Shown here: in pieces, positions 7,174 to 22,681 of the stretch
How positions within the stretch are numbered: the first letter of the stretch is position 1
Layout: each line of letters begins with the position of its first letter
Assembly (NCBI GenBank): GCA_938031175.1
Contig: CALHGZ010000002.1
Location: 203,242-267,241, forward strand
Direction of reading: 5' to 3'
Length of the DNA stretch: 64,000 nucleotides
Origin: Candidatus Kapaibacterium sp.
GTDB taxonomy: Bacteria > Bacteroidota > Ignavibacteria > Kapaibacteriales > UBA2268
The notes under the pieces: generated by a model
The model's database searches: none
The model's input: only the letters and a program-made list of their open reading frames with translations
What the model was told of the DNA's origin: nothing
Position numbers and translations under genes: made by a program

Positions 7174-10100
7174 ATGAATTTAGATCAAAATTTTTTAAAT
7201 AATGCTTTGAATGATTTAAATGATGTAATAAAAGATGAAAAGCATTGGTCAATAGCTTGGGAAATCGCAAAAAAAGCCAAAGAAAATGGTTATTTAGAGC
7301 TTTGCGATCAAGCTTGCGCTATTGTACTTTCAAAAAATCCAGAATTTTGGTTTGCAAGAGAATTACCGAAACAGGCACGTGGTTATTATGGTCAGAATCT
7401 TCAAGATTTAATCATCGAACAATATTTCAACGAACGTGGTGCAAAATGCAAATTTTTTGTTGAAGTTGGTGCCTTTGATGGAGTTCATTACAGCAATGTA
7501 CGACGCTTGTTCGAAAAATATGGATGGAAAGGTATTTGTATCGAGCCGGTTACAAAAAATTTCCAAAAATTATATGATTCATACAGAAACACTGACATAA
7601 TATGCATTCATTCAGCAGTCTCGAATTTTAATGGGACATTGGAAATGAATGTTTCAACATATCCTCATTTACCAGATTGGGGAAGTGATGTGGCTTCTTT
7701 TAGTCCAACTGAAAAAGAAAAATGGACGCAACGTTATGGGGCTGTCTGGCAAAAAGAGACAGTGAAGGTTCGCACTTTAAATGATATTTTGAGTGAATAT
7801 AAGGTAGATGAATTAGGTTTTCTCTCAATTGACGCTGAAGGCCACGATTTAGAAGTATTAATGGGTATTGATTTAATAAAGTATAAACCAGATTTGATTT
7901 TAATTGAATCGGGCGATAGGAGAAATGAAATCATTGATTATGTAACCCGCTTCAATTACTCATTGATTTTAGATGATACTCAAGACTTGTTTTTTGCTAA
8001 AATTAATACTATTGATGACGAAATTTCAAAAAGTGGTTTTGAGGTTATCAATTATGCTAAAAACAATGGTAAGGAACCTTATGTTGTTATTCAAGAAATT
8101 GTAGAAAACCAGCTTGACTCAATAATCGGTTCGCATAAAGGCGAGATTCGTAATATACTTATTGTCGGCGCCTATTATGGCAGAGAGATAGACAACTTAT
8201 TGAAAAACTATCCAAATGCTGAGATATACGCATTTGAACCAAATCCAAAATATTTTGAGGGATTAGAGCATAAATATTCTCAAAATAGAAAAGTCCATTG
8301 CTATCAATATGCTGTTGCTAAAACTGATGGATGGATGGAATTTTATGAGACAAATCTTGAAGGCAGTGGTTCAATTCTTCCTATAAATGATAAATCTGAT
8401 GTAGTAAATGACTATGGTATAAGGCAGACAGAAAAATTCACAGTTAAAACTATATCACTTGACAATTTCTCCGCTATACAAGGGCAAAAGATTGATTTGA
8501 TCTGGATAGATGTTCAAGGTGCTGAATTAAATGTATTAGAAGGGGCTGGAAATATACTTCAAAATACCAAATGTATTTTTTTAGAGGTTTGGGCTTCAAA
8601 AACTTTGTATAAAGATCAATGTAGATTAATTGATTTAGAAAAATTTTTAATACGCTATGGTTTAATTCTGCATTCCATAGGATTAGGTCATTCAATTGGA
8701 AACGGTAGTGGAAATGCTATTTTTATAAGAAAAGATCTGCTATTTAAAAAAGATGAAAATTCAGCCATTGAGGATTTTTCTCAAATTAAAAATCTTATCA
8801 ATCCTAAGTTATTTGATATTAATTATCTAACTGAAAAAGATTATAAATTTTGTAAAACGAGCCATGCATTAGATCTTTTAGTCCCAGAACGGTTTGATAT
8901 TATAGCAAAATATATCTATGGATATTATATTTTAAGAAACATAGGTTCTGATTTTGCAGAATTGGTTTATAAATCACATCTATACGTCCTAAATCAATTT
9001 GATGAAGATGATTTTAGTTTTAAAAAAGGTTATGAAAGTTTTAGAACCCATTTCAAAAATTTACTAAAATCTGTTCAATCAGTTGGATTTAATGAGAATC
9101 AAACTAGAATTCCAATTGATAAAAATGGTGTTATCATTGATGGAAGTCATAGAGTTGCAACATGCTTGCTTTTGGGTATTGCTGTTCCTGTTGTGGTTTT
9201 TGATAAAAATGCAAATATCTACGATTATAAATATTTTCAGAATAGAAGATTAGAAACTAAATATGCTGATTTTATTGCATATCATTATGCGAAACTTAAA
9301 AAAAATACTTATATAGTTACTTTGTTTCCTTCAGCCATTGGTTATGATGATGAAGTTGAGCAAATTCTCCGAAATTATGCTAAAATTGTTTATCACAAGA
9401 AAATTGAAATAAATACAAAAGGGGCAATAAATTTGATAAAACAAATGTACCGCGATGAGAAATGGCTTGGTAATGAAGAGAATAATTTCGAAGGGGCAAG
9501 ATACAAAGCAGAACAATGTTATCGCCATAATGGCCCAACAAGAGTTTATTTAATCGAAACTAAGGCCCCTGAATTGTTAGTTCAGGCAAAAACGAAAATC
9601 AGAGATATTTATAAAATTGAAAATCATTCAGTTCATATAAATGACAAATATGATGAAACATTAAGATTGGCACAGATTTACTTCAATGACAACAGTATCC
9701 ACTTTTTAAATAATGCATCTATCTTACAACCAGCTAGATTCAGGTATCTTTTCAACGAATATAAAAAATTTTTGGAAATAAATAATGTAGATACAGAATA
9801 TTTTTGTATTGATGGAAGTGCTGTAATGTCTGCATATGGAATTAGGGATTGCAGGGATTTGGATTATTTGCATAAGGGTTATGAAAATATCAATTATAAA
9901 GACATTGAGGTAATTGGAAGCCATAACCACGAAGTAAGTTATCACAGCACTGGAATTGATAATATAATATTTAATCCTGATAATCATTTCTATTTCGATG
10001 GTATTAAATTCTGTTCACTCAAAGAAATCAGAAATATGAAAGAAAAAAGAGGGGAATTAAAAGACAATGAAGATATTTACTTGATAGATTATCATTTAGG

Positions 10101-13100
10101 AAATGCGAAATCTTCAAGTCAATTACAAATCAGCGCAAGCTCTATAAAAAGGAAAAAAATTGTTGGATTAGTTCCGGGTCGAAATGAACAAATTCAAATT
10201 GCTCAATGCTTAAGGTGTTTAGCACAATTCACAGATGCGATAGTATATCTTGATGATTGCTCTGATGATGATACTTTAAAGATAGTTAAATCCCTGCGTG
10301 TAGAATGCAACATTGAAAGAATTATTGAGAAAAAAACCTGGGAAAGGGATGAACCTAAAGATAGAAACGATTTGCTCAATGCCGGCAGAGAAATCGGAGG
10401 TACACATTTTATTGTCCTCGATGCTGATGAGGTATTGACATCTAATCTTTTAGTCAACAATGTTTTGCGAGAGGCAATTTTAAATTTACAAGCAGGTGAT
10501 ATAATTAAATTAAATTGGATTCAGCTTTGGAGATCAACTGAGAAATATCGCTTCGATAAATCTGTTTGGACTTATAATTATAAAGATTTTATTTTCTGTG
10601 ACGACGGTAATTGCTTTTATAGTTCTGATTTTATTCACACTTCGAGATGTCCAGGAAATCTAAAAGGCAAAGTTTATACTCTCGAAGGTTATGACGCTGG
10701 TGTACTACATTTCCAATTTGTTAATTGGAGAAATTTGTTGATTAAACAAGCCTGGTATAGATGTCTTGAAAGAATAAAAAATCCAGATAAAGATATAAAT
10801 GAAATAAACCAGCTTTATGCACCAAGCAAAGATGAACGGGGTATTCACCTCGAGCCTGTAAGACAAGAATGGTTTAGTTATTACAAAAGTTTCGATAAAA
10901 CAATTTATATGCAACCAGAGCATTGGCGCGAAAGACAAATCATAGCTTGGTTCAATCAATATGGTAAAGAGTTTTTCAAGAATTTGGATATTTGGGATAT
11001 TGATTGGAATGAAGATATCTTGACAATTGAAGATAAAAGTAGCCATATTCTAGTTTCTGCTATTGTTTCAGTTTACAGAGCAGAAAAATATATAAAAGAT
11101 TGTCTTGAGGATTTAGTTAATCAAACGCTATTTAAACAGGGGAAATTAGAAATAATCTTAATCGATAGCAATTCACCAGAAGGTGAATATGAAATAATTA
11201 AAGAATATCTCAATAAATATCCTAATATAGTTTATCATCGCACTGATGTCCGTGAAACTGTTTATCAGGCTTGGAACCGAGGTATAAAATTATCACGCGG
11301 CGAATTTATAACAAATGCCAATACTGATGACCGACATAAACCCGATGCCTTAGAGATTATGGCTAAATATCTTCAAGAACATACCGATGTTGGGATAGTT
11401 TATGCTGATTGCTTTGTTACAGATGCTGATAACCCAAAATGGAATAATAATTACTCAAGGGCTTTAAAGTGGCCAGAGTACAATCTCAGACACTTATTCG
11501 ATGTATGTTTTTTAGGTCCGCAACCTATGTGGCGAAAATCATTACACGATAGATATGGATATTTTAATGAAGAATATGAATCTGCTGGCGACTATGAATT
11601 TTGGCTCAGAATTGCTGTGAACGGGGTTAAAATGCTTCATATTGATGCTATTTTAGGTATTTATCAAGAAAATAAAGATAGTATTTCTCTATCAAATTTA
11701 GAACTGAATTGGAATGAATCAGAAAAAGCAAGAAATAAATATTGGCCAAAAGAATGGGGACCTAAACCTCCAACTCAATGGAGGTCTTACGAAGTAAAAC
11801 TCGAACCTAAAAAAAGCAAAAGAATTTTAATAATCTGCGACTATTTTTGGCCTTCTGTTGGCGGAGTTGAATTAGTAGCTGAGGATTTGGCTGTCTCTTT
11901 GATGAATTATGGTCATTATATTGAAATCGCTTGCAGAAAATTAAATAACAGAGAATCATTGTTGTATAAAGGTATAAAAATAAATGAATTCGAAGGAGAT
12001 AATAATGATGATGTTAATAAAAGAAATATTGAAAAGGAAAATTTTATCGAATTATGTAATAAAGAGAATTTTGATGTTGCAATAGCAATTTCTCAACCGG
12101 ATAATTGGGTTGGAGAATATTTAAAAGCTGCGAGAAATAAGCCTTATTTAATTTATATGCCGAGTATAAATTATGATAATTTTTGCAATTATCGAAGGCA
12201 AGCATATTTATTTGAACTATACAATAGAATATCAATAGCCGATAAATTGATAGCAGTTAGTGAAAATGGTTGGGATGCACATTATTTAAGGAAGATGGAT
12301 TTAGAATATTATTTCATTCCACATGGTACACATAAAAATGACAAAAACATTGATTTTCGTTCAGAATTTGGCATTTCGAAAAACAAGCCGATGATACTTA
12401 TAGTTGCTAACTTCTGGCCTGTAAAAAATCATCTAGAATTTTTTAAGTATTTCAAAGATTGTAAGCTTGATTGTGAATTAGTTGTAATTGGTAACAAAAT
12501 CTCCAATTATGATATTTATTTTAATGAATGTTTAAAATTAGCAGAAACTGATCCACGTATTAAAATACTAGGTGGATTAGAGCGACAAATTGCATCCGCA
12601 GCAATCAGAGATGCTGATCTATTGCTTGTGCCTTCTCTCGGTGAGAGTGCAGGTCCCCTTGTTATTTTGCAGGCTATGAGCTATGGTACTCCTTGGCTTG
12701 CAACCAAGCATTGCAATGCAGTCAATGATGAAGCCGGCGGTGTCGTTACAAATTTAGAAAATTTCAACGAGCTGATTGAAGTATTGTTTTCTAAGCCACA
12801 ATTTTTAGTAGAATTGGGAAAATTAGGTAGGGAACATTGGGAACGTTGTTTCCAATGGAATAAAATGATGGATGCTTTTTTGGAAATCATAGACAGTGGA
12901 TATACAGCAAAGGATTTCCATTTTCCAGAGGACATTAAGAAAAAAAATGAAAGTCTAAGAACAGAAATTTTGAGTTACTTAAAGAAAAATGATGAACCAA
13001 AAGCAACACAATTTTCAATCATTATTCCAACATACAATAGAAGCGAAGTATTATTGAAATGTTTGAAATCTCTCGACGAAATGGACTATGATAGCAAAGA

Positions 13101-15354
13101 TTATGAAGTAATTGTTGTTGATGATGGTTCAACTGACAATACTGAAGAGGTTGTAAAATCATTCAGGAGTAGATATACTCTAAAATATTTCAAAAAAGAA
13201 AATGGTGGACCGGGACCAGCAAGAAATTTAGGAATAAAAAATGCTTCTTTTGAGTATCTTTTAATTCTAAATGACGATGCTATTTGCTATCCAGATTTAC
13301 TGAGAGAACACGATAAAGTTCATAAATTATATCCCAATCAAAAAATATCAGTCCTTGGAGCATTCCCATACAAAGAAAAAGCACAGAGAAAAATTTTCGT
13401 TTATTTTCTTGAACGCAGCACTCTTGTATTTGCATACCCAATGATGAAAGCGGGTCAATTATATAATTATCGCTTTTTTTGGACTTGTAATATCAGTATC
13501 CGTAAACAGGCAATAATTGATGCAGGACTTTTCGATGAAGATTTTAGGGAACCTATGACTGAAGATACTGAACTTGGATATCGCTTGCAAAAAATGGGGT
13601 ATTATGTATTGTATCACCCTGATGCTTTTACAATACACGAACATTCAATGGATATTGAAGGTTTTGCAAAAAGACAAAAAATGTGCGGGAGAAATGTAGT
13701 TCTGCTTTTCAACAAACATCCTGAGTTATTACAGATAGAGAAAAAGCTTTTTGGGTTTGATGGATTAGGTCCTCAATATCAAGAATATTTCAAAAATATA
13801 ATAAAACGATATGAGGAAGTTACACCAGTATTTACCAACTTTTTCAAGGAAATTGAAGATGTCAATCCAGATGGAATTAACAGTATTATGATGCCTAATG
13901 GTCGCTTGCTAAATAAAAATGAGATTATTGCATTTTTAGAGTACTTAGCATCAACTATTCATACGTATTGGTTTCATGTTGGAATACTTGAAGGAATAGA
14001 AAAATATGGTATTCCAGAGGATAAAAACAAAGAAAAATCAATCCATTTTAGCTTAAATGTTTATAAAAAACCAAAGATTCTATTTACAATGTACGGATGG
14101 AACGAAACAGGAGGTGGAACCATAATTCCACGTTCGATTGCAATTCGCCTTGCTCGAAAGGGTTATGAGGTTGGAGTATTTTATGCCGGATTGAATCATC
14201 CTATCATTAAAGAATCTTATTACTTCGAAAAAAGCAATGATAGTGGAGTTACTTTGTATGGAGTGTTTAATCGTCCAATTTTATTTACAAACGGTGCTAA
14301 TCCTGAAAATGAAATAAGAGATGAAAAAATTATCGAAATCTATTCAAAGGTTCTTGATGATTTCAAACCAGATATAGTTCATTATCACAATTTTATTGGA
14401 TTATCATTTGCAATAGCTGATGTAACAAAATCAAAAGGTATTCCTTCCGTATACACCCCTCATAATTACCATTTGATGGACCCCAATTTGTATATGATTG
14501 AAAATGATTTAAGGATATGGAAAACTGTATCATTACTCGAAAATTCGAATTTAATTAAACTATATCCGGAAAAACGGGATCTTTATATAGAAAGGATGAT
14601 AGAAGCCCGTAATTTAATTAATAAAAAAATTGACTACACTTTGGCAATTTCAAGACGTGTTAAGGAGCTGTTAATTGATTTTGGAGCTGATGGTTCCCGC
14701 ATTGCTGTTGTAAATCAAATTCCAGAGAGCTGTGAAATGGTTAGTGCTAAAAAATCTACTGATGATATAAGATTACCTTTGCGTGCTGGATTTATTGGAA
14801 CGGTAATACCGCACAAAGGAGTTCATATTATTGCAATAGCAGCCCAAATGATTCCTGAAGATGCGATGCAGTTTTACATATATGGATTTGGTAATCCACG
14901 TTATATCGAATTAATTAAAAATTACGATAAACTCAATCGGCTCAACTGGATGGGTGAATATCGTCCACAGGATTTGCAACAAATTTCACAAAATCTTGAT
15001 CTAGTTATAATTCCAAGTATCTGGGAAGAAGGAGCTGGGATGGTTTTACCAGAATCCTTAGCAATGGGATTACCTGTTGTTGCAGCAAATATCGGTGGTA
15101 TCCCAGATTACGTTAAAAATGAATATAATGGCGTATTATATAAATATGATTCAGCAATTGATTTAGCGCGTATTCTGAATGATATTGCCAAAAATCCCGG
15201 AAAATTAATTTCTTGGAAAAATAACTGTTCTATATCTTATAAATTTGACGAATTTGTGGACTGGATTGCTAATATTTATAGAAAGTTGATTTCAAAGGTG
15301 TCACTTAATTGTGAAGAAATATCCCTTTATTTTGATTCAGTGATAAAAAACTAA
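7174..15354 (+). CDS. Giant multidomain FkbM methyltransferase / glycosyltransferase megaenzyme
   Basis: A single uninterrupted 2726-residue frame with no signal peptide or membrane segment. Domains in order: helical TPR-like start (1-70); FkbM-type SAM methyltransferase 1 (75-270; VEVGAFDG at 96-103, LSIDAEGHD at 217-225); FkbM methyltransferase 2 (315-520; IVGAYYG at 330-336, IDVQGAE at 445-451); ParB/sulfiredoxin-like domain (~550-690; DGSHR at 656-660); unassigned and nucleotidyltransferase-like region (705-985; GSAVMSAYG and DLD at 881-897); GT2 (994-1200; LDADE at 1082); GT2 (1292-1535; NANTDD at 1381); GT4 (1550-1910); GT2 (1946-2200; VVDDGS); GT4 (2300-2715; intact E-x7-E). In the first GT4 the second Glu of that motif is Gln. 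Likely builds and methylates a surface glycan. The start has AGGA seven bases upstream. Confidence 0.9.
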   Translation: MNLDQNFLNNALNDLNDVIKDEKHWSIAWEIAKKAKENGYLELCDQACAIVLSKNPEFWFARELPKQARGYYGQNLQDLIIEQYFNERGAKCKFFVEVGAFDGVHYSNVRRLFEKYGWKGICIEPVTKNFQKLYDSYRNTDIICIHSAVSNFNGTLEMNVSTYPHLPDWGSDVASFSPTEKEKWTQRYGAVWQKETVKVRTLNDILSEYKVDELGFLSIDAEGHDLEVLMGIDLIKYKPDLILIESGDRRNEIIDYVTRFNYSLILDDTQDLFFAKINTIDDEISKSGFEVINYAKNNGKEPYVVIQEIVENQLDSIIGSHKGEIRNILIVGAYYGREIDNLLKNYPNAEIYAFEPNPKYFEGLEHKYSQNRKVHCYQYAVAKTDGWMEFYETNLEGSGSILPINDKSDVVNDYGIRQTEKFTVKTISLDNFSAIQGQKIDLIWIDVQGAELNVLEGAGNILQNTKCIFLEVWASKTLYKDQCRLIDLEKFLIRYGLILHSIGLGHSIGNGSGNAIFIRKDLLFKKDENSAIEDFSQIKNLINPKLFDINYLTEKDYKFCKTSHALDLLVPERFDIIAKYIYGYYILRNIGSDFAELVYKSHLYVLNQFDEDDFSFKKGYESFRTHFKNLLKSVQSVGFNENQTRIPIDKNGVIIDGSHRVATCLLLGIAVPVVVFDKNANIYDYKYFQNRRLETKYADFIAYHYAKLKKNTYIVTLFPSAIGYDDEVEQILRNYAKIVYHKKIEINTKGAINLIKQMYRDEKWLGNEENNFEGARYKAEQCYRHNGPTRVYLIETKAPELLVQAKTKIRDIYKIENHSVHINDKYDETLRLAQIYFNDNSIHFLNNASILQPARFRYLFNEYKKFLEINNVDTEYFCIDGSAVMSAYGIRDCRDLDYLHKGYENINYKDIEVIGSHNHEVSYHSTGIDNIIFNPDNHFYFDGIKFCSLKEIRNMKEKRGELKDNEDIYLIDYHLGNAKSSSQLQISASSIKRKKIVGLVPGRNEQIQIAQCLRCLAQFTDAIVYLDDCSDDDTLKIVKSLRVECNIERIIEKKTWERDEPKDRNDLLNAGREIGGTHFIVLDADEVLTSNLLVNNVLREAILNLQAGDIIKLNWIQLWRSTEKYRFDKSVWTYNYKDFIFCDDGNCFYSSDFIHTSRCPGNLKGKVYTLEGYDAGVLHFQFVNWRNLLIKQAWYRCLERIKNPDKDINEINQLYAPSKDERGIHLEPVRQEWFSYYKSFDKTIYMQPEHWRERQIIAWFNQYGKEFFKNLDIWDIDWNEDILTIEDKSSHILVSAIVSVYRAEKYIKDCLEDLVNQTLFKQGKLEIILIDSNSPEGEYEIIKEYLNKYPNIVYHRTDVRETVYQAWNRGIKLSRGEFITNANTDDRHKPDALEIMAKYLQEHTDVGIVYADCFVTDADNPKWNNNYSRALKWPEYNLRHLFDVCFLGPQPMWRKSLHDRYGYFNEEYESAGDYEFWLRIAVNGVKMLHIDAILGIYQENKDSISLSNLELNWNESEKARNKYWPKEWGPKPPTQWRSYEVKLEPKKSKRILIICDYFWPSVGGVELVAEDLAVSLMNYGHYIEIACRKLNNRESLLYKGIKINEFEGDNNDDVNKRNIEKENFIELCNKENFDVAIAISQPDNWVGEYLKAARNKPYLIYMPSINYDNFCNYRRQAYLFELYNRISIADKLIAVSENGWDAHYLRKMDLEYYFIPHGTHKNDKNIDFRSEFGISKNKPMILIVANFWPVKNHLEFFKYFKDCKLDCELVVIGNKISNYDIYFNECLKLAETDPRIKILGGLERQIASAAIRDADLLLVPSLGESAGPLVILQAMSYGTPWLATKHCNAVNDEAGGVVTNLENFNELIEVLFSKPQFLVELGKLGREHWERCFQWNKMMDAFLEIIDSGYTAKDFHFPEDIKKKNESLRTEILSYLKKNDEPKATQFSIIIPTYNRSEVLLKCLKSLDEMDYDSKDYEVIVVDDGSTDNTEEVVKSFRSRYTLKYFKKENGGPGPARNLGIKNASFEYLLILNDDAICYPDLLREHDKVHKLYPNQKISVLGAFPYKEKAQRKIFVYFLERSTLVFAYPMMKAGQLYNYRFFWTCNISIRKQAIIDAGLFDEDFREPMTEDTELGYRLQKMGYYVLYHPDAFTIHEHSMDIEGFAKRQKMCGRNVVLLFNKHPELLQIEKKLFGFDGLGPQYQEYFKNIIKRYEEVTPVFTNFFKEIEDVNPDGINSIMMPNGRLLNKNEIIAFLEYLASTIHTYWFHVGILEGIEKYGIPEDKNKEKSIHFSLNVYKKPKILFTMYGWNETGGGTIIPRSIAIRLARKGYEVGVFYAGLNHPIIKESYYFEKSNDSGVTLYGVFNRPILFTNGANPENEIRDEKIIEIYSKVLDDFKPDIVHYHNFIGLSFAIADVTKSKGIPSVYTPHNYHLMDPNLYMIENDLRIWKTVSLLENSNLIKLYPEKRDLYIERMIEARNLINKKIDYTLAISRRVKELLIDFGADGSRIAVVNQIPESCEMVSAKKSTDDIRLPLRAGFIGTVIPHKGVHIIAIAAQMIPEDAMQFYIYGFGNPRYIELIKNYDKLNRLNWMGEYRPQDLQQISQNLDLVIIPSIWEEGAGMVLPESLAMGLPVVAANIGGIPDYVKNEYNGVLYKYDSAIDLARILNDIAKNPGKLISWKNNCSISYKFDEFVDWIANIYRKLISKVSLNCEEISLYFDSVIKN

Positions 15355-15564
15355 AGATTTTTGTAAATGTCATTAACTTAGTCCGCTGGTAATAGAATGG
15401 AAAGGTTTTGTTATAAAAAATTTAGGAATATTATTTCTGAAATAATTTAGAAATGGGATAATTTTTTTAACAATTGAATATGAAATAATCAAACAAATGA
15501 AACCTAAGATAAATTTGATAATTTTGAATAGTAAATTTACGTGAATCTTATTTTTAATTTCAGA

Positions 15565-16344
15565 TTAAAAATCCTTATTTACGAAAATTCGTCGCGCTAA
15601 ATAATATGGAATTGCAATCCATAAGAATAGAATACTAGTCGAGATTATAATTCCAATTGTACTACCGAAATATTTTTTGTAAATAGCTCCCGTATAACCC
15701 ATCATTGCAGATAAATCAAGTTTCAATGTGATGATAATACGTGCTAGGTTGATTGGATTTAAGGAATTGAAAACAATTGCTGGAATTTCGAGCGGATAAT
15801 CGCGAAAAGAATAAAGAATTAGCATAAATATACCATCGTAAACAATCAGGAATACAGCCCACAGAATTAATCCAATGCCAAAACCTTTGGCTTTATCGTT
15901 TTGGCTGAAAGCTATAAGATAAGCGAGGGCAAGAAATGAACAGGAGATAAAAACCCCTGTAAAAAGTATTGTCATTGAAATGATTAATTCACCATTGATT
16001 TCACGTAATAGAATAGGTAGCCCACTTCCAAGTATAAATGCTGATGAGAGTACAATTGTTGTAGCTAAATATGAAGCTACAAATATGATTTTTCGTGGGA
16101 TTGGTTGAGAAAGCAAAATTTCGTTGAATTCACTTCTATTATATATATGTTGAATCCCAAATAATAAACTAATAAGTGGTAAAACAATAAGCACTATATT
16201 TGTTAAACTGACTAATACTTTTGATACATCTCCGCTGAACCAGTACAGTGATTCAATCAATATGAAGAATAAAATAGCATAAGCGATAATCCACCTACTT
16301 TTTAGCAGATCGTTTATTTCTTGTATTAATAATATTTTAGTCAT
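15565..16344 (-). CDS. nosY: NosY-type ABC transporter permease
   Basis: A 259-residue ABC-2 type permease with about six hydrophobic segments and a cytoplasmic loop containing NRSEFNEILLSQPIPR, which is usual for NosY. With NosF and NosD it forms the NosDFY complex that supports assembly of the copper site of N2O reductase in the periplasm. It is the last gene of the nos operon; its ATG lies inside the end of nosF (8-base overlap), so the two are translationally coupled. The 210 bases after it hold no gene. Confidence 0.88.
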   Translation of the reverse strand: MTKILLIQEINDLLKSRWIIAYAILFFILIESLYWFSGDVSKVLVSLTNIVLIVLPLISLLFGIQHIYNRSEFNEILLSQPIPRKIIFVASYLATTIVLSSAFILGSGLPILLREINGELIISMTILFTGVFISCSFLALAYLIAFSQNDKAKGFGIGLILWAVFLIVYDGIFMLILYSFRDYPLEIPAIVFNSLNPINLARIIITLKLDLSAMMGYTGAIYKKYFGSTIGIIISTSILFLWIAIPYYLARRIFVNKDF

Positions 16345-17050
16345 TTTGTTTATTTTTAATATTTAAAAATAGCTTAGAGATTGCTTTTTCTAAATTTCCA
16401 TTAGTTATTAATTTTTCTTTAGAACCACTGAAAATAACATTACCATCATTAAGAATATGAATAAAATCTGATAATTGTTCAATATCGGATAATATATGAG
16501 ATGTAAGAATTATGGTTTTACCTTTATTTTTTTCAATCAATAACAATTTTTTTAAAGTTCTACTTGCAACTGGATCTAAACCAGCTGTTGGTTCATCGAG
16601 AATGAGTATTGGTAAATCGAACATTAGAGCCAAAACAGCGTTAACTTTTTGTTTTGTCCCACCAGATAAATTTTTAAGTGGTTTTTCAAGCTCACTACTG
16701 AGATTTAACTGTTTTATTAATTCGTCCCTATTGATAGGTTGGGCATTTCTTAATTTAGTAATTAAATCAAACAATTTAATCGGAGTCAGATTTTCAGGGA
16801 AATTGGCAATTTGAGCCATATAACCGATATCTTTTCTGTATTCCCATTTATTGAGGATGCTTTGGTTATTAATTTGAACATCACCATTTGTAGGTCTTAC
16901 AAGATTTAAAATTATTTTTAAAAGTGTAGTTTTACCTGAGCCATTATGACCTAGTAATGCATTTATTGCACCTTTTTGGAACTCTAAATCTATTTTATTA
17001 AGAACAATTTTTTTGCCGTACTTTTTCGATATTTTTAATACTTTAATCAT
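16337..17050 (-). CDS. nosF: NosF ABC transporter ATPase
   Basis: A 237-residue ABC ATPase. Walker A is GHNGSGKTT (residues 34-42), the signature is LSGGTKQK, Walker B is LPILILDEPTAGLDP and the switch His is in ILTSHIL. It powers NosDFY, which services the copper centre of NosZ. The frame overlaps nosD upstream and nosY downstream by 8 bases each. Length is normal for NosF (often ~300 with a longer C-terminus), slightly short. Confidence 0.93.
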   Translation of the reverse strand: MIKVLKISKKYGKKIVLNKIDLEFQKGAINALLGHNGSGKTTLLKIILNLVRPTNGDVQINNQSILNKWEYRKDIGYMAQIANFPENLTPIKLFDLITKLRNAQPINRDELIKQLNLSSELEKPLKNLSGGTKQKVNAVLALMFDLPILILDEPTAGLDPVASRTLKKLLLIEKNKGKTIILTSHILSDIEQLSDFIHILNDGNVIFSGSKEKLITNGNLEKAISKLFLNIKNKQND

Positions 17051-18287
17051 ATTGTGGTTTTGATATCAAAGGACTATGGTCAGCAATAGAATCTGAAGTT
17101 ACAATTGGAATTAATGATTCGGCTAAATCGAGTAAAGCTACAAAAAAACTATTGAGAAACATTAAAAAAACTGGATTTTTCTCAATTATGACTGTAAAAA
17201 GAGAAATAGGACGATAAGGTGTATCTCCTATGTTATCTTTATCAATATCATAACCAGAGTATTTATCCCAATAGTTTTTTGAAAATTTAGAACTTACTTG
17301 GAAGCTATTTGCTGTTAGATCAAATGTATTCCCAGAAAATATATTAAAAGTAAATAAATTGTTTGTAGAATTAGCCATTAATCTTATAGCCCAGCCGTTT
17401 CTATAAATATAGTTGTTATGAATTTTATTATTTCCACCGCCTTCAACATATATTGCGGTAGTGTTGCGAATGAATTTATTTCCAATGATTTCGCTACTTG
17501 AGATATCTTTCAAGAGCAAACCATAGGCAGAACTGCCCCAATTATTGTTGAAGATATTATTTTGCATCAGTACATTTTTAGTGTACATCACAGCGACTCC
17601 TGTTCCATTTGCATTGAACTCATTTTCCATGTAAATAGCATTGTCCGAAAACATAAAGTGCAAACCATATCTAAGATTTTTTTCTACTTGATTTTTTTGA
17701 ATTGTGGCATTTTGAACGAATTCCAAATAAATTCCATCGCGCATTCCAGAGATGTAATTTCCCTCTATGAACAAATTATTGCAATACCATAGATGTATGC
17801 CATTGCCCGAGGTTGATTCAGTTTTTGAATGTCCAATTATTTTGTTATTTTTTATTTGTATGTCTTTGCTATTTGCAACATATATAGCAAATAAGCAATT
17901 GTTAAGGGTACAGTTTATGATAGTACAATTTTGTGTTGAATTTAGTTTTATTCCAGCTCTATCTTCAATATAGCTCAAGCCGGTATTTTCAATTATTAAA
18001 CCGTCTAATTTAGTATAATCTGAATCTACTATAATAACAAATCCTTCAAAATTACCGGAAATTACAGGTGAGTTAATCCCGATTAAAGTGATAGGTTTAT
18101 TTATGATGATAGTTCCTTCCGTATAATATCCATTATAGATTTTAATAGTATCGAAATCATTAGCCAGTTCAATAGCTTGTTTTATACTATTCAGTTGGGC
18201 ATCTTTTTTGACTTCATAAGTGCGGCAGTAAAGCATATTGTTGTATAATAAGATGCACATAAGTATAAGAAATCTAAAGCACATCAT
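17043..18287 (-). CDS. nosD: NosD periplasmic copper-processing beta-helix protein
   Basis: A right-handed parallel beta-helix built from repeated Asn-rich coils (for example NCTIINCTLNNCLFAIYVANS, truncated here) of the CASH/NosD type, preceded by a signal peptide (MMCFRFLILMCILLYN). The C-terminus (PYRPISLFTVIIEKNP, SFFVALLDLAESLIP) matches the typical NosD tail. NosD accepts copper from NosL and with NosFY delivers it for CuZ assembly. The frame is open to 18314, but that start would lie inside nosL; the ATG at 18287, five bases after the nosL stop, fits the signal peptide and the operon. Confidence 0.92.
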   Translation of the reverse strand: MMCFRFLILMCILLYNNMLYCRTYEVKKDAQLNSIKQAIELANDFDTIKIYNGYYTEGTIIINKPITLIGINSPVISGNFEGFVIIVDSDYTKLDGLIIENTGLSYIEDRAGIKLNSTQNCTIINCTLNNCLFAIYVANSKDIQIKNNKIIGHSKTESTSGNGIHLWYCNNLFIEGNYISGMRDGIYLEFVQNATIQKNQVEKNLRYGLHFMFSDNAIYMENEFNANGTGVAVMYTKNVLMQNNIFNNNWGSSAYGLLLKDISSSEIIGNKFIRNTTAIYVEGGGNNKIHNNYIYRNGWAIRLMANSTNNLFTFNIFSGNTFDLTANSFQVSSKFSKNYWDKYSGYDIDKDNIGDTPYRPISLFTVIIEKNPVFLMFLNSFFVALLDLAESLIPIVTSDSIADHSPLISKPQYD

Positions 18288-18291
18288 TAAT

Positions 18292-18738
18292 TTAGTCACC
18301 CCATTCCTCAGCAATTAATTGCATAACACCTTCCCAATCATACACTTTCCCTTCGTTTTCTTTCATCGTTTCTTTCAATTGGTTTTCATCAGAAAATGCT
18401 GTTAAGAACATTGCCATAGGGCTTGGCAAAGATCGGCTCCTGAGGAAATAGGCCTTTTTGGCGTCAATTAAATGTTTAGGATTGCCATAATCAATTACCC
18501 ACAAAGAATGTATGTCTTCATAATTGATCAATTTATCATAAATGAATTTTGCCATACATTCTGCAGCATCGAATTTGAAGGCTTTGCCTTTGCTTGTAAC
18601 AATTTCTGCACCATATCTATGGTCACTGATTATCATTTTGCAATGATAGCACTCATCAATGCCAAAGTTTATTGGTTCAGGCTCGGGTGAACAAGAGATT
18701 AAGACGATTAATACTAATATAAAATATTTTATTTTCAT
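18292..18738 (-). CDS. nosL: NosL copper-chaperone lipoprotein
   Basis: A 148-residue lipoprotein: signal MKIKYFILVLIVLISC with lipid Cys at 16. The Cu(I)-binding segment is ECYHCKMIISD (C30, C33, M35), the NosL hallmark, followed by AAECMAKF. NosL is an outer-membrane copper chaperone that hands Cu(I) to NosD. Its ATG overlaps the stop of the preceding membrane-protein gene by 4 bases (ATGA), consistent with coupled translation. Confidence 0.93.
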   Translation of the reverse strand: MKIKYFILVLIVLISCSPEPEPINFGIDECYHCKMIISDHRYGAEIVTSKGKAFKFDAAECMAKFIYDKLINYEDIHSLWVIDYGNPKHLIDAKKAYFLRSRSLPSPMAMFLTAFSDENQLKETMKENEGKVYDWEGVMQLIAEEWGD

Positions 18739-19340
18739 TCAATAAGCTCCTGTTTTGAATTAATTTTTGATTCTAAATAAAATAAAATCCAACCAGCTAT
18801 CAAAGAAGAGAAGACTAAAATACCCCCAGAAGCTGGATAGGAAGAAACAGTGAAATTCATAATTTTTTTCGAACCAATAAATGGTGGGTCGTATGACTGA
18901 GTTTCAGTTTTGATAATTGCATTTGGATCGAGGTTATGACCAAATTCCTGTTGCCATAGGTAATAGTCAATTAACCCAACAATTCCTGATAATGAAAATA
19001 TAAGAAGCCAAATAAATACAAAAATTCTTTTTTTTAGGATTAATGATATTAATCCAATAACAATTAATGAAATAGTAACTATTGGTATAATTTTAAATTC
19101 AGGTACTTCCTCGGGTTTAATTTTTTGCATACCAATGTAGTGATTTAGGTTGTTGATAGTTTCGAGTGCATTTTCTCTTGTGCCTTGGATATCGTTAATA
19201 TAAATGTAAAGCCCCAATCCCTCAGGGAATTGGGGCGCATCAAAGTCTATATGCCATAATGGTAATATAAAAAGTGTAGTAGGTATTAATGCAATTATCG
19301 CAAATATTACTCTTATTTTATTGTTCATATCAATCATCAT
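18735..19340 (-). CDS. Conserved-position membrane protein of the nos operon, function unknown
   Basis: A 201-residue protein with about four hydrophobic segments (residues ~10-28, ~85-103, ~108-128 and ~172-190). The two periplasmic-looking loops hold short aromatic and acidic stretches (HIDFDAPQFPEGLGLYIY; YLWQQEFGHNLDPNA). It sits two bases after nosZ and overlaps nosL by four, so it is certainly co-translated with them. A membrane protein in this slot is known from clade II nos clusters of Bacteroidota-like organisms, but its role is not established; maturation of NosZ, copper handling or electron supply are all possible. I see no CxxCH or CxxCK site in it. Confidence 0.85.
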   Translation of the reverse strand: MMIDMNNKIRVIFAIIALIPTTLFILPLWHIDFDAPQFPEGLGLYIYINDIQGTRENALETINNLNHYIGMQKIKPEEVPEFKIIPIVTISLIVIGLISLILKKRIFVFIWLLIFSLSGIVGLIDYYLWQQEFGHNLDPNAIIKTETQSYDPPFIGSKKIMNFTVSSYPASGGILVFSSLIAGWILFYLESKINSKQELIE

Positions 19341-19342
19341 AA

Positions 19343-21295
19343 TTAGTTTGCTTTATTATAGGAAATTACTACATTAGCATTTGCAGGTGAAACTTTGACG
19401 TATCCTTGCATTTCTTGATGAAGGGCTGAGCAGAAATCTGTGCAATAAAATGGGTAAACACCGGGGGATTTCGGTGTCCATTTTAAAGTAGCTGTTTCAC
19501 CAGGCATAATTAATAATTCTGCATTTTCTGCTCCTTTAACTGCGAATCCGTGTGGAATATCCCAATCCTGTTCTAAGTTTGTTACGTGCCAATATACTAT
19601 ATCTCCAACTTTAATCCCTTCAATATTATCGGGCATAAAATGCGAACGGATTGTAGAAATATATATTCTGACAATATTGCCTTCTCGAATAACTCGGGCA
19701 TCTTTTTCAGATTTAATTGCATAAGGATGATTATTTTCTCCTAGTGGATAAATTTTCTTTGCATTTTTCATTACGATTTCTGCTGGGATAGCTTGTGCAT
19801 AATGTGGCTCACCTACAGTAGGAAAATCAAGTAAAAGCTTCATTTTGTCGCCGGAAATGTCATATAATTGAGCTGATTGAGTTAATTCGGGTCCCGTTGG
19901 CAAATATCTGTCTTTTGTAATTTTATTAAGAGCTATAACATATTTACCCCATGGTTTTTTACTGTCACCACCTGGAATCATCAAGTGACCAATTGAATAA
20001 TAAGTCGGAACTCTATCAACAACTTCCCAAGTCCCGATTTTCCATTTTACAATTTCTGATGATAGGAACATAGATGTATACCCATAACCTTTGTCGTCGA
20101 ATTCAGTGTGAAGTGGTCCCAAACCTGGTTCTTTGACTTCTCCTGCTAAAACAGCTTCATAATTGAGTACGGGAATGCCATCAATTTCTTTATCAAATTT
20201 CTTTTCTTCAATTGCTTTAAGCATTTTAGAAAATGAAAAAACTGGTATTAGAGCAGCTAGTTTCCCACCAGCAACGATGTATTCACCCGAAGGGTCAACA
20301 TCGCATCCGTGTGGTGATTTTGGGACCGGAATGTAATAGATCATACCTGGACAATCCTGGGGTAAAAGAACTTTGACTTTATTGATTTCGTTAGAAGTAG
20401 CGGTATGGGTTTTTTCGTCGAAATAATTATGCCTATATCTTGTTGATACTTCTTTAAATTTCCCTTGTTTGATGTATTCCTCTGCGAGTTTCCAATTTAC
20501 AGCAGCTATAAAATCTTTATCATTTTGACTTGCATTGACTTCAAGTAATGTATGTGCTTGCTCTGTATTATAGGATGTAAAAAAGAACCAACCATGCGAA
20601 GCATTTTTCCCTGCACGACTTAAATCGTAATTGAATCCAGGAACAAGAAGTTGAAATGCAAGCTCCATTCGACCGCTTGCTTTATCAATTTTTATGAAAG
20701 AAATAGAGCCTTTGAAATTATCCTTATATGTATCAATTGCTACATCCTGATTTGGAATAGGAACGCTAAAGCGAGTACCTGCAACAACATATTCAGTATT
20801 CTCAGTTAAAAATGGAGAGCTATGATTACCTGCACTAAATGGAATTTCAATAATTTCGACAGTTTTGAATGAGCTTAAATCAATTCTTGCAACTCGGGGT
20901 GTGTTATTGCCATTAATAAATATCCACCGTCCATCTGGAATACCGTCAGTAGTTGATAAAGCTGGATGGTGCGCATCATCCCAAGGAATAAATCCATAAG
21001 AAGTTTCCAGCATTGGCTTGGTTTCTTCAGAATAGCCCCATCCATTTTCGGGATTTTGTGAGAAAACGGGTATAACTTTTAGTAAGCGTCCGCTTGGTAT
21101 TCCGTAAACAGATAATTGACCGCTGAATCCACCAGAGAAAAATCCATAAAATTCATCATATTTGCCGGGTGCGACATAGACTTTGCTCGCTGCATCAACA
21201 TCACCTGCCAAATCTGAACTTGATTTGCAGGATACAAAATATGCAACAATAGCTATTATAGCTACTGCAATTGCTAAATAGTAATTTTTTTTCAT
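19343..21295 (-). CDS. nosZ: Nitrous oxide reductase, clade II (Sec-exported)
   Basis: A 650-residue multicopper enzyme that reduces N2O to N2 in the periplasm. The N-terminal seven-bladed propeller shows the CuZ histidines in DDAHHP, GNHSSPF, SPHGCDVDP, GPLHTEFDD and GEPHYAQA. The cupredoxin CuA domain at the C-terminus has C618-TDF-C622-SAL-H626-QE-M629, plus the upstream His in WDIPHGF. Export is by a Sec-type signal, not Tat, which defines clade II; the signal ends in YFVSC at residue 23, so NosZ may be lipid-anchored. A small cytochrome c gene lies 31 bases upstream and the accessory genes follow. No NosR is present, as usual for clade II. Confidence 0.97.
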   Translation of the reverse strand: MKKNYYLAIAVAIIAIVAYFVSCKSSSDLAGDVDAASKVYVAPGKYDEFYGFFSGGFSGQLSVYGIPSGRLLKVIPVFSQNPENGWGYSEETKPMLETSYGFIPWDDAHHPALSTTDGIPDGRWIFINGNNTPRVARIDLSSFKTVEIIEIPFSAGNHSSPFLTENTEYVVAGTRFSVPIPNQDVAIDTYKDNFKGSISFIKIDKASGRMELAFQLLVPGFNYDLSRAGKNASHGWFFFTSYNTEQAHTLLEVNASQNDKDFIAAVNWKLAEEYIKQGKFKEVSTRYRHNYFDEKTHTATSNEINKVKVLLPQDCPGMIYYIPVPKSPHGCDVDPSGEYIVAGGKLAALIPVFSFSKMLKAIEEKKFDKEIDGIPVLNYEAVLAGEVKEPGLGPLHTEFDDKGYGYTSMFLSSEIVKWKIGTWEVVDRVPTYYSIGHLMIPGGDSKKPWGKYVIALNKITKDRYLPTGPELTQSAQLYDISGDKMKLLLDFPTVGEPHYAQAIPAEIVMKNAKKIYPLGENNHPYAIKSEKDARVIREGNIVRIYISTIRSHFMPDNIEGIKVGDIVYWHVTNLEQDWDIPHGFAVKGAENAELLIMPGETATLKWTPKSPGVYPFYCTDFCSALHQEMQGYVKVSPANANVVISYNKAN

Positions 21296-21326
21296 AGAGA
21301 CTCCATATATTGTTTAAGAAAGTGGG

Positions 21327-21734
21327 TCATTTAGCTCCATCAATATCTCTAAGATGCTCTAATAATGCACGGGCATCTTGTTCATTTATATTTTGATTAG
21401 TCATTTGAGTCATATATTCAGCCAACATAGCTCTAACTGTTGGATTTTTTTTAGCCATCTCTTCAGGATTAATTATCATATTCATTATAAATTCAGGAGA
21501 GCGTCTTTCTGTAACTCCTCTTAAGGGCGGTCCAACGTATCGTTCGTCATATTTATGACAGGCTGTGCATTTCTCACGGAAAATTTCTGCTCCCTTTTCT
21601 GCTAATTGTTTGTCTAATGCTCCTATTTCTACTTTTTTGATTGGCCCTATTCCTCGATCAACATTATCTGACTCACCACAGGCAAATATTATTAGTGATA
21701 ATAAAATTATCGTTAGCATTTTGAAGTTTTTCAT
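21327..21734 (-). CDS. Monohaem cytochrome c lipoprotein, probable NosZ electron donor
   Basis: A 135-residue class I-type cytochrome: lipoprotein signal MKNFKMLTIILLSLIIFAC (lipid Cys 19), haem motif CTACH at residues 56-60 preceded by GAEIFREK, then YVGPPLRGV. Met residues C-terminal to the haem (for example AEYMTQMTN) could provide the sixth ligand. As the first gene of the nos operon it is the likely carrier that feeds electrons to the CuA site of NosZ. The 278 bases upstream contain the operon promoter region, where I could not identify a certain promoter. Confidence 0.93.
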   Translation of the reverse strand: MKNFKMLTIILLSLIIFACGESDNVDRGIGPIKKVEIGALDKQLAEKGAEIFREKCTACHKYDERYVGPPLRGVTERRSPEFIMNMIINPEEMAKKNPTVRAMLAEYMTQMTNQNINEQDARALLEHLRDIDGAK

Positions 21735-21975
21735 AACAATCCTTTTTAATAAGATAAAAAAGTCTGAATAACAATTGCAATTTTAAAAAAAAATTATATG
21801 ATATACAAATTTTTTTTTGGGTTATTTAGCTAATTTAATAAAATATTTTTAAAAATAGTAAATTTTTAATTCAGAATTTAAGGTATGTTTATTAAAAATT
21901 TTTATTTTAAAGAAGCGATAAGAATTTATATAAAAAATTTATTATCTGCTATTTGTTCGATTGAAGAAATATAAT

Positions 21976-22011
21976 GTGATTGTGAGAATTTAAGTGATTG
22001 TAAGGATTGAA
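21976..22011. repeat. Imperfect tandem 18-bp repeat
   Basis: GTGATTGTGAGAATTTAA (21976-21993) is followed directly by GTGATTGTAAGGATTGAA (21994-22011); 15 of 18 bases match. It lies between the end of the DUF2490-like gene and the nos operon, about 240 bases upstream of the first nos gene. It could be a regulator site or chance in AT-rich DNA. Confidence 0.5.
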
Positions 22012-22012
22012 C

Positions 22013-22681
22013 TTATTGAATTAATTTCAATGTTTTAATCTGGTAGCTAATTCCAAATACAAATTTTGATTCTGGTTTTTCAATGTTAAATTCATTTTCA
22101 TGCATAAAATAAAGCTCGATTGATTGTCGCTTCATAGTAGCAATATCGGTTGTGAATATGTATCTTATATTATTAAATCGTTGGATATTAATGTTGTAAA
22201 ACAAATCTGCTTCAATAGAAAAAGAGATTTTTTTTGATAAATTATATGTTATACATAATTTTTGTCTTATTTGTTGATTATCTTTGTCTAAATCGAATCC
22301 TTTGGAATCGTACCTTATTCTATATTTGAAATCAAATCTATTTGATGATTGGGTGAAGTTAGAGGAGAAATATAAACCATTGATATTCGATTTTTCTCTA
22401 ATTTTCCAACGATAGTATGACGAAACGCGCCACCAGGGGAATATCCGATAGGAAATGCCGATATCGTTTATATCAGATTTTATAAGTTTTTCAGATAGGT
22501 TTGAACGTATTTCTTTTGTAGCACGTATGGATACACCATAGACCACTGGGAAGTCTAAGTCGATACCACTCCATAATTCTATAGGTTCGTTTTGCCCCCA
22601 GATATAAATATTATTTTGAAAAAATGATGAAATAATTATGGTAGTGATGAATTTGAAATATTTAAGGATCGGCAATTGCAT
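22013..22681 (-). CDS. DUF2490-like outer-membrane beta-barrel protein
   Basis: A 222-residue protein with an N-terminal hydrophobic signal and alternating amphipathic strands rich in Tyr, Phe and Arg (YRIFPWWRVSSYYRWKIR, FKYRIRYDSKG, IELYFMHENEF), ending in a strand ISYQIKTLKLI. The pattern and length fit the DUF2490 family of small outer-membrane barrels. It is the last of three minus-strand genes after the VTC-domain and DUF4956 genes, a grouping seen in other Bacteroidota, so it probably serves the same unknown envelope pathway. Confidence 0.7.
   Translation of the reverse strand: MQLPILKYFKFITTIIISSFFQNNIYIWGQNEPIELWSGIDLDFPVVYGVSIRATKEIRSNLSEKLIKSDINDIGISYRIFPWWRVSSYYRWKIREKSNINGLYFSSNFTQSSNRFDFKYRIRYDSKGFDLDKDNQQIRQKLCITYNLSKKISFSIEADLFYNINIQRFNNIRYIFTTDIATMKRQSIELYFMHENEFNIEKPESKFVFGISYQIKTLKLIQ

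Follow-up and report, generated by a model that had tools for sequence, protein, structure and literature searches.

The 64,000-nucleotide stretch of Candidatus Kapaibacterium sp. analysed here (the window) contains a giant gene, which runs as a single open frame from an ATG start through 2,726 codons without a stop. Pfam searches of the encoded 2,726-residue protein recover FkbM twice, glycosyltransferase family 2 (GT2) at three places and GT4 at two. Together with a middle region of ParB-like, nucleoside-diphosphate-kinase-like (NDK-like) and nucleotidyltransferase (NTase) character, the module order is FkbM-FkbM-(ParB-like/NDK-like/NTase)-GT2-GT2-GT4-GT2-GT4 (Table 1). Homologues align across the full length of the protein, so chance is no candidate explanation. 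The protein has no strongly hydrophobic stretch, the best 19-residue mean being 1.8. The gene is located on contig C2 away from any flagellar gene, and its neighbours encode CstA, an M1 peptidase, an aldo/keto reductase and lipoprotein-like proteins. No glycan gene was found among the ten nearby genes scanned, and none was recognised among the remaining open reading frames (ORFs) of the window, which were read by eye. The same scan and reading revealed no initiating transferase, flippase or polymerase of a Wzx/Wzy-type locus. Directly downstream, the giant gene is adjoined by a nitrous-oxide reductase cluster encoding NosZ, a NosL-like protein, NosD, an ABC ATPase and permease, and a cytochrome c (15565-21734). 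A previous sequence-only reading of this locus had described one uninterrupted frame, the succession of two FkbM domains and GT2-GT2-GT4-GT2-GT4, and no other glycan gene within reach, and all three descriptions agree with our searches. Its account of the middle region was partly right, since the ParB-like domain (weak PHROG 930 match) and the nucleotidyltransferase (structural model and VIA-align) both gained support, but it had missed the NDK-like domain between them.

Table 1. Features of the giant gene, with positions in the window.
Feature	Positions	Strand	Remarks
Whole gene, 2,726 aa	7174..15354	+	one open frame
N-terminal region, residues 1-66	7174..7371	+	common to flagellin-locus homologues; no Pfam match
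FkbM-type SAM methyltransferase 1, residues 67-290	7372..8043	+	motifs EVGAFDG, SIDAEGHD
FkbM-type SAM methyltransferase 2, residues 320-515	8131..8718	+	WIDVQGAE kept; glycine-rich loop divergent (VGAYYG)
ParB-like domain, residues 560-709	8851..9300	+	PHROG 930 E=6e-4; invariant H659-R660; predicted from model
NDK-like domain, residues 710-842	9301..9699	+	VIA-align Z 12.8; invariant R810, H821, D824
Nucleotidyltransferase-fold domain, residues 843-990	9700..10143	+	S882...D895-x-D897 invariant; predicted from model
GT2a, residues 993-1286	10150..11031	+	LDADE
GT2b, residues 1290-1545	11041..11808	+	NANTDD, GDYEFW
GT4a, residues 1549-1936	11818..12981	+	second Glu of EX7E replaced by Gln, likewise in three relatives
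GT2c, residues 1943-2290	13000..14043	+	LNDDA, TEDTE
GT4b, residues 2299-2720	14068..15333	+	EX7E intact; order-wide marker domain

GT2b and GT2c score 92.7 and 100.2 bits in Pfam, and GT4a and GT4b reach 47.7 and 85.2 bits against a cut-off of 26.4 (PF00534). GT2a is borderline when scored alone (22.1, with the PF00535 cut-off at 23.3), but the whole protein passes PF13704 (30.2 against 27.5). The best match in a PDB sequence search was chondroitin synthase. Direct reading and alignment indicate that catalytic motifs are kept in nearly all modules, including the GT2 metal-binding motifs LDADE, NANTDD and LNDDA with the acidic partners GDYE in GT2b and TEDTE in GT2c. The two FkbM pieces, scored separately, reach 60.1 and 68.3 bits against a cut-off of 22.7 (PF05050/TIGR01444), and both are predicted SAM methyltransferases based on these curated cut-offs and their acidic motifs. 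The sequence-only reading had raised the prospect that most domains lack catalytic residues, which is not the case given the motifs present in the FkbM, GT2 and GT4b domains. A decayed, non-functional fusion was considered as well and rejected, because the motifs are kept and the Gln of GT4a is common to three relatives and hence no private decay. Residues 1-69 have no Pfam match, and no TPR of the flagellin-binding type found in FlmG was identified at the N-terminus.

The middle of the protein (residues ~520-990) has no match in Pfam or NCBIfam. The match of the ParB-like part to PHROG 930 is weak. A structural model built from 38 aligned sequences (pLDDT 88.9) shows three domains. The NDK-like part aligns over 118 residues with an rmsd of 2.7 in VIA-align, and its best Foldseek E-value is 2.2e-3. 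The NTase domain predicted alone (pLDDT 92.7) has TM1012 as its best VIA-align match (Z 9.9), and the other top rows are NTases too. Foldseek returned no match at E <= 0.001 for either part, and the two calls are based on the VIA-align Z together with nearly all top rows coming from the respective family. The models thus predict an NDK fold and a pol-beta-type nucleotidyltransferase fold with S...DxD for the middle domains. Residues invariant in all 38 aligned rows include H659-R660, H821, D824, S882, D895 and D897. H821 is part of an HxND motif, and the sequence search gave no NDK match. A PDB sequence search with the ParB-NDK-NTase part returned nothing real (best E about 0.2-2, equal to chance), and no phage record matched the region. 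The ParB-NDK-NTase family (residues 555-990, window 8836-10143) is encoded on 56 viral contigs (L072-L127). Many of the viral copies are fused to extra N-terminal sequence, which in the two tested matches a GtrB-like glycosyltransferase. Among genomes sampled across the phylum, the part is present in 3 of 296, one of which is G375, described below. ParB-like folds include the free-serine kinases SerK and SbnI, and the tri-domain could hypothetically make a phospho-group donor for this reason.

The nearest colinear homologues are located close to flagellin genes. In a genome of the same phylum but another family (G375), a 1,277-aa ORF is colinear with residues 24-1281 at 39-43% identity. Genes for three flagellins, FliS, FliD and FlaG begin 1.4 kb downstream of it in the same orientation. 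In Geomonas oryzae S43 (L032), a 2,066-aa ORF (7734-13931) shares 44-55% identity with residues 29-277 and 522-1278. The adjacent 2,842-aa ORF (13859-22384) contains parts matching residues 1290-1523, followed by GT4, GT2 and a match to residues 2301-2718 (43%). The Geomonas pair thereby repeats the order of the window protein as N-FkbM-FkbM-ParB-NDK-NTase-GT2 / GT2-GT4-GT2-GT4, and the window protein reads as a fused form of the two adjacent genes. The Geomonas genes however overlap, carry extra C-terminal parts and are part of a flagellar locus, whereas the window protein is one frame outside of any such locus. About 3.6 kb separate the end of the pair from a flagellin gene, and FlgL-, FlgK-, FlgI- and MotA/B-like genes follow, where the flagellin and the FlgL-like gene were named by the Flagellin_N profile and the other flagellar genes by sequence reading. 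Truncated flagellin-like and FlaG-like sequences next to the Geomonas giants had no Pfam match, and the identity of the flagellin was established from the complete genome. The stretch between the MotA/B-like genes and the flagellin (L132, 3320-10620) contains two further large TPR-like ORFs of 985 and 1,448 aa, and a GT41-type TPR protein is encoded on the other side (L032, 22291-24279), hence the Geomonas flagellar locus holds several giant candidates.

A multi-gene version of the same set is found on Ilyobacter polytropus pILYOP01 (L070, 814-835 kb), where FkbM, GT, ParB-NTase, GT, GT2 and GT4 are separate genes of one EPS-type locus that includes a polyprenyl glycosylphosphotransferase. The modules can thus serve other glycans too. 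The window genome itself encodes three flagellins on other contigs (C4 and C5) as well as FlhA, and a fourth Flagellin_N match (C2:94602) may be FlgL. No GT genes were seen beside those of its flagellin genes that were read, and the genome gave no match to MptE/Maf-type proteins. Elsewhere, it encodes ordinary GTs and has three initiating-transferase matches.

One alternative is that an assembly error created the single frame as a chimera by joining two different genes near residue 1280, a concern also expressed in the sequence-only reading. No single protein seen in another genome crosses the junction (1279-1290), and the N-terminal 1,286 residues occur in 1 of 123 genomes of the order Kapaibacteriales, which is the window genome itself. 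Both findings would fit a chimera. Codon usage is however equal on both sides of the junction and correlates with that of the genome at r 0.97-0.98. The GC3 values of the N and C halves (0.229 and 0.233) likewise match that of the genome (about 0.24), and both halves are unlike Geomonas (GC3 0.745) and several relatives. There is hence no obvious sign of misassembly. The contig spans 374 kb, Geomonas has the same order over two adjacent genes, and giant GT ORFs are normal in the order. Taken together, codon usage, GC3 and the relatives lend the chimera no support and make it very improbable. Misassembly fits less well than an ancient lateral acquisition of the N block with subsequent fusion. 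The gene looks like a flagellin-locus block (residues 1-1286), likely acquired laterally, fused to an order-typical giant GT ORF (residues 1287-2726).

Giant GT ORFs are widespread in the order. In relatives, nearly every locus read around matches has an ORF of about 1,000-3,700 aa that encodes GTs. The mix of GT2, GT4 and sometimes FkbM domains differs from one such ORF to the next, and many flagellated relatives carry such a mosaic ORF. The best shared marker is GT4b, for which a profile alignment (A2) was built from 20 copies. Among 103 genomes of the order at least 90% complete, 39 have exactly one marker match each. Flagellin is present in 38 of these 39 genomes compared to 28 of the 64 without marker (Fisher 3.6e-9), and in 23/23 genera with marker compared to 11/20 without (p = 3e-4), where the p-values ignore shared ancestry, which accounts for part of the association. 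Within-genus comparisons are the cleaner evidence. Flagellin, FlhA and the marker are all missing from two genomes (G083 in g17 and G024 in g25) whose congeners possess both flagellin and marker. A third (G039 in g31) has neither flagellin nor giant, and its congener G055 has both, with a 1,993-aa ORF. A partial counter-example is the flagella-less G026 (g3), which keeps a 651-aa ORF with a GT4b domain, and its flagellated congener G002 has only a 665-aa ORF at the GT4b match. In 13 flagellin-negative genomes, no GT2 ORF of at least 1,000 aa was found among the matches listed (down to E = 1.1e-28), and all 13 keep ordinary GT2s. Nearly all relatives searched have the lipid-linked initiating transferase. 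Giants of 1,993-3,745 aa occur in many flagellated genomes that lack the marker, and several flagellated genomes have no giant among the matches listed. Different domain mixtures are seen in the other giant GT ORFs of the marker-negative flagellated G004, G017, G018, G020, G032, G035, G038, G055 and G096. The giant GT family appears to evolve by domain shuffling.

The giant protein is probably a cytoplasmic flagellin O-glycosylation line on one polypeptide, a reading from sequence comparison to which we assign a probability of roughly 0.68. A soluble cytoplasmic enzyme would assemble and decorate flagellin's O-glycan, a task more commonly divided over many separate enzymes. With five GT domains, it may add up to five sugars in succession, either directly to flagellin or to a sugar already there, and the two FkbM domains may transfer methyl groups to this glycan or to one of its substituents. 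The middle module (ParB-like/NDK-like/NTase) might produce or pass on a phosphorylated group in activated form. Separate genes play a comparable part in C. difficile and P. aeruginosa, where flagellin bears phospho-amino-acid glycans. The frame, its domains and motifs, the homologues near flagellin genes and the co-occurrence with flagella are observed, and from these we infer the acceptor, the sugars, the order of steps, the product of the phospho module and the lateral gain. A more far-reaching version probably goes too far and is put forward only tentatively. Here, the polypeptide would be a complete flagellin-glycan pathway, in which a ParB-like kinase, the NDK-like domain and the NTase generate a phospho-substituent on site, activated by a nucleotide, and the chain is extended and modified on flagellin in a processive manner by the GT and methyltransferase domains. 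Domain order would set the glycan, and order-wide shuffling in about one gene per genome would rewrite the flagellar coat.

The sequence-only reading had instead proposed a collapsed repeat-unit assembly line. A glycan assembly line indeed fits the two-gene split in Geomonas, the multi-gene version in Ilyobacter and the kept catalytic motifs. The repeat-unit part, which implies a polysaccharide, fares less well because flagellin loci harbour the closest colinear homologues and the distribution of giant GT ORFs within the order follows that of flagella. In such a scenario, the giant would assemble a lipid-linked unit of O-antigen, capsule or exopolysaccharide, with GTs extending undecaprenyl-PP-sugar and methyltransferases capping it. 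GT2, GT4 and FkbM domains are common in loci of this kind, the Ilyobacter genes share theirs with a polyprenyl glycosylphosphotransferase, and the window genome has its three initiating-transferase matches elsewhere. Yet neither the scanned neighbours nor the window ORFs read by eye supply an initiating transferase, flippase or polymerase, and flagella-less relatives keep their initiating transferases with no giants among the matches listed, which makes a lipid-linked unit unlikely. The giant could also glycosylate another exported protein such as an S-layer protein, pilin or adhesin, with an indirect link to flagella through, for example, a free-living motile lifestyle. In the window genome, the giant gene shows no linkage to flagellar genes, and acceptors cannot be read from sequence. 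Another acceptor is nevertheless quite improbable given homologues adjoining flagellins in two distant lineages and the coinciding losses of giants and flagella within genera.

If the flagellin reading is right, a whole protein-glycosylation pathway would reside on one chain. Sequence would then reveal how enzyme order relates to glycan structure, and this relation could be probed in a laboratory strain by cutting apart or exchanging domains. A checkable glycan would also be predicted for the flagellated members of the order, which has been little cultured. The ParB-NDK-NTase module would represent a new candidate enzyme class for the phospho-decoration of glycans, found both in bacteria and on the 56 viral contigs.

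Multi-domain GTs and flagellin glycosylation islands are already known. In line with the sequence-only reading, which knew of no described protein of this architecture, none was found in the open-licence literature on giant or multi-domain GTs with FkbM, on Geobacter/Ignavibacteria flagellin glycosylation and on fused flagellin GTs. Two aspects not found in that literature are thus new against it, namely a predicted flagellin line that unites seven transferases and a ParB-NDK-NTase tri-domain in a single chain, and the recurrence of giant mosaic GT ORFs among flagellated genomes of the order. Chondroitin synthase K4CP, which polymerises one disaccharide, also has more than one GT domain on one chain but is without a methyltransferase or phospho module. 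For each type of step proposed here there is a direct precedent. Known flagellin glycans bear phosphate and methyl groups from kinase, nucleotidyl-transfer, methyltransferase and GT genes (PMC4441256, PMC11833859, PMC7874193). In C. difficile and P. aeruginosa, the caps are of phospho-methylthreonine type, and genes of the flagellar locus were assigned these four roles (PMC4441256, PMC11833859). The C. difficile Type A and P. aeruginosa b-type clusters (CD0240-CD0244, PA1088-PA1091) hence resemble the window protein in GT, nucleotidyl-transfer, phosphate-handling and methyltransferase roles, but consist of separate flagellin-locus genes and add one sugar, whereas the window protein is one chain. 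By their descriptions, their kinase and NTase are set apart as phosphoserine-phosphatase-like and cytidylyltransferase-like (PMC4441256) rather than ParB/NDK-like. Fusion is not foreign to these clusters, as P. aeruginosa PA1091 already joins a GT and a CD0244 homologue (PMC11833859). The Aeromonas fgi islands decorate polar flagellin with an oligosaccharide that can reach seven units and bears phosphate and methyl groups in varying degree, and Fgi-1 is predicted to be cytoplasmic (PMC7874193). The islands comprise many separate genes, however, and Fgi-1 is a single GT2 enzyme of ~320 aa, unlike the window protein. FlmG of Caulobacter is a modular soluble flagellin O-glycosyltransferase (PMC7591256), as proposed for the window protein. 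With 596 aa, FlmG combines one GT domain with a TPR flagellin-binding N-terminus, whereas the window protein contains five GT domains, and Pfam detects no TPR in it.
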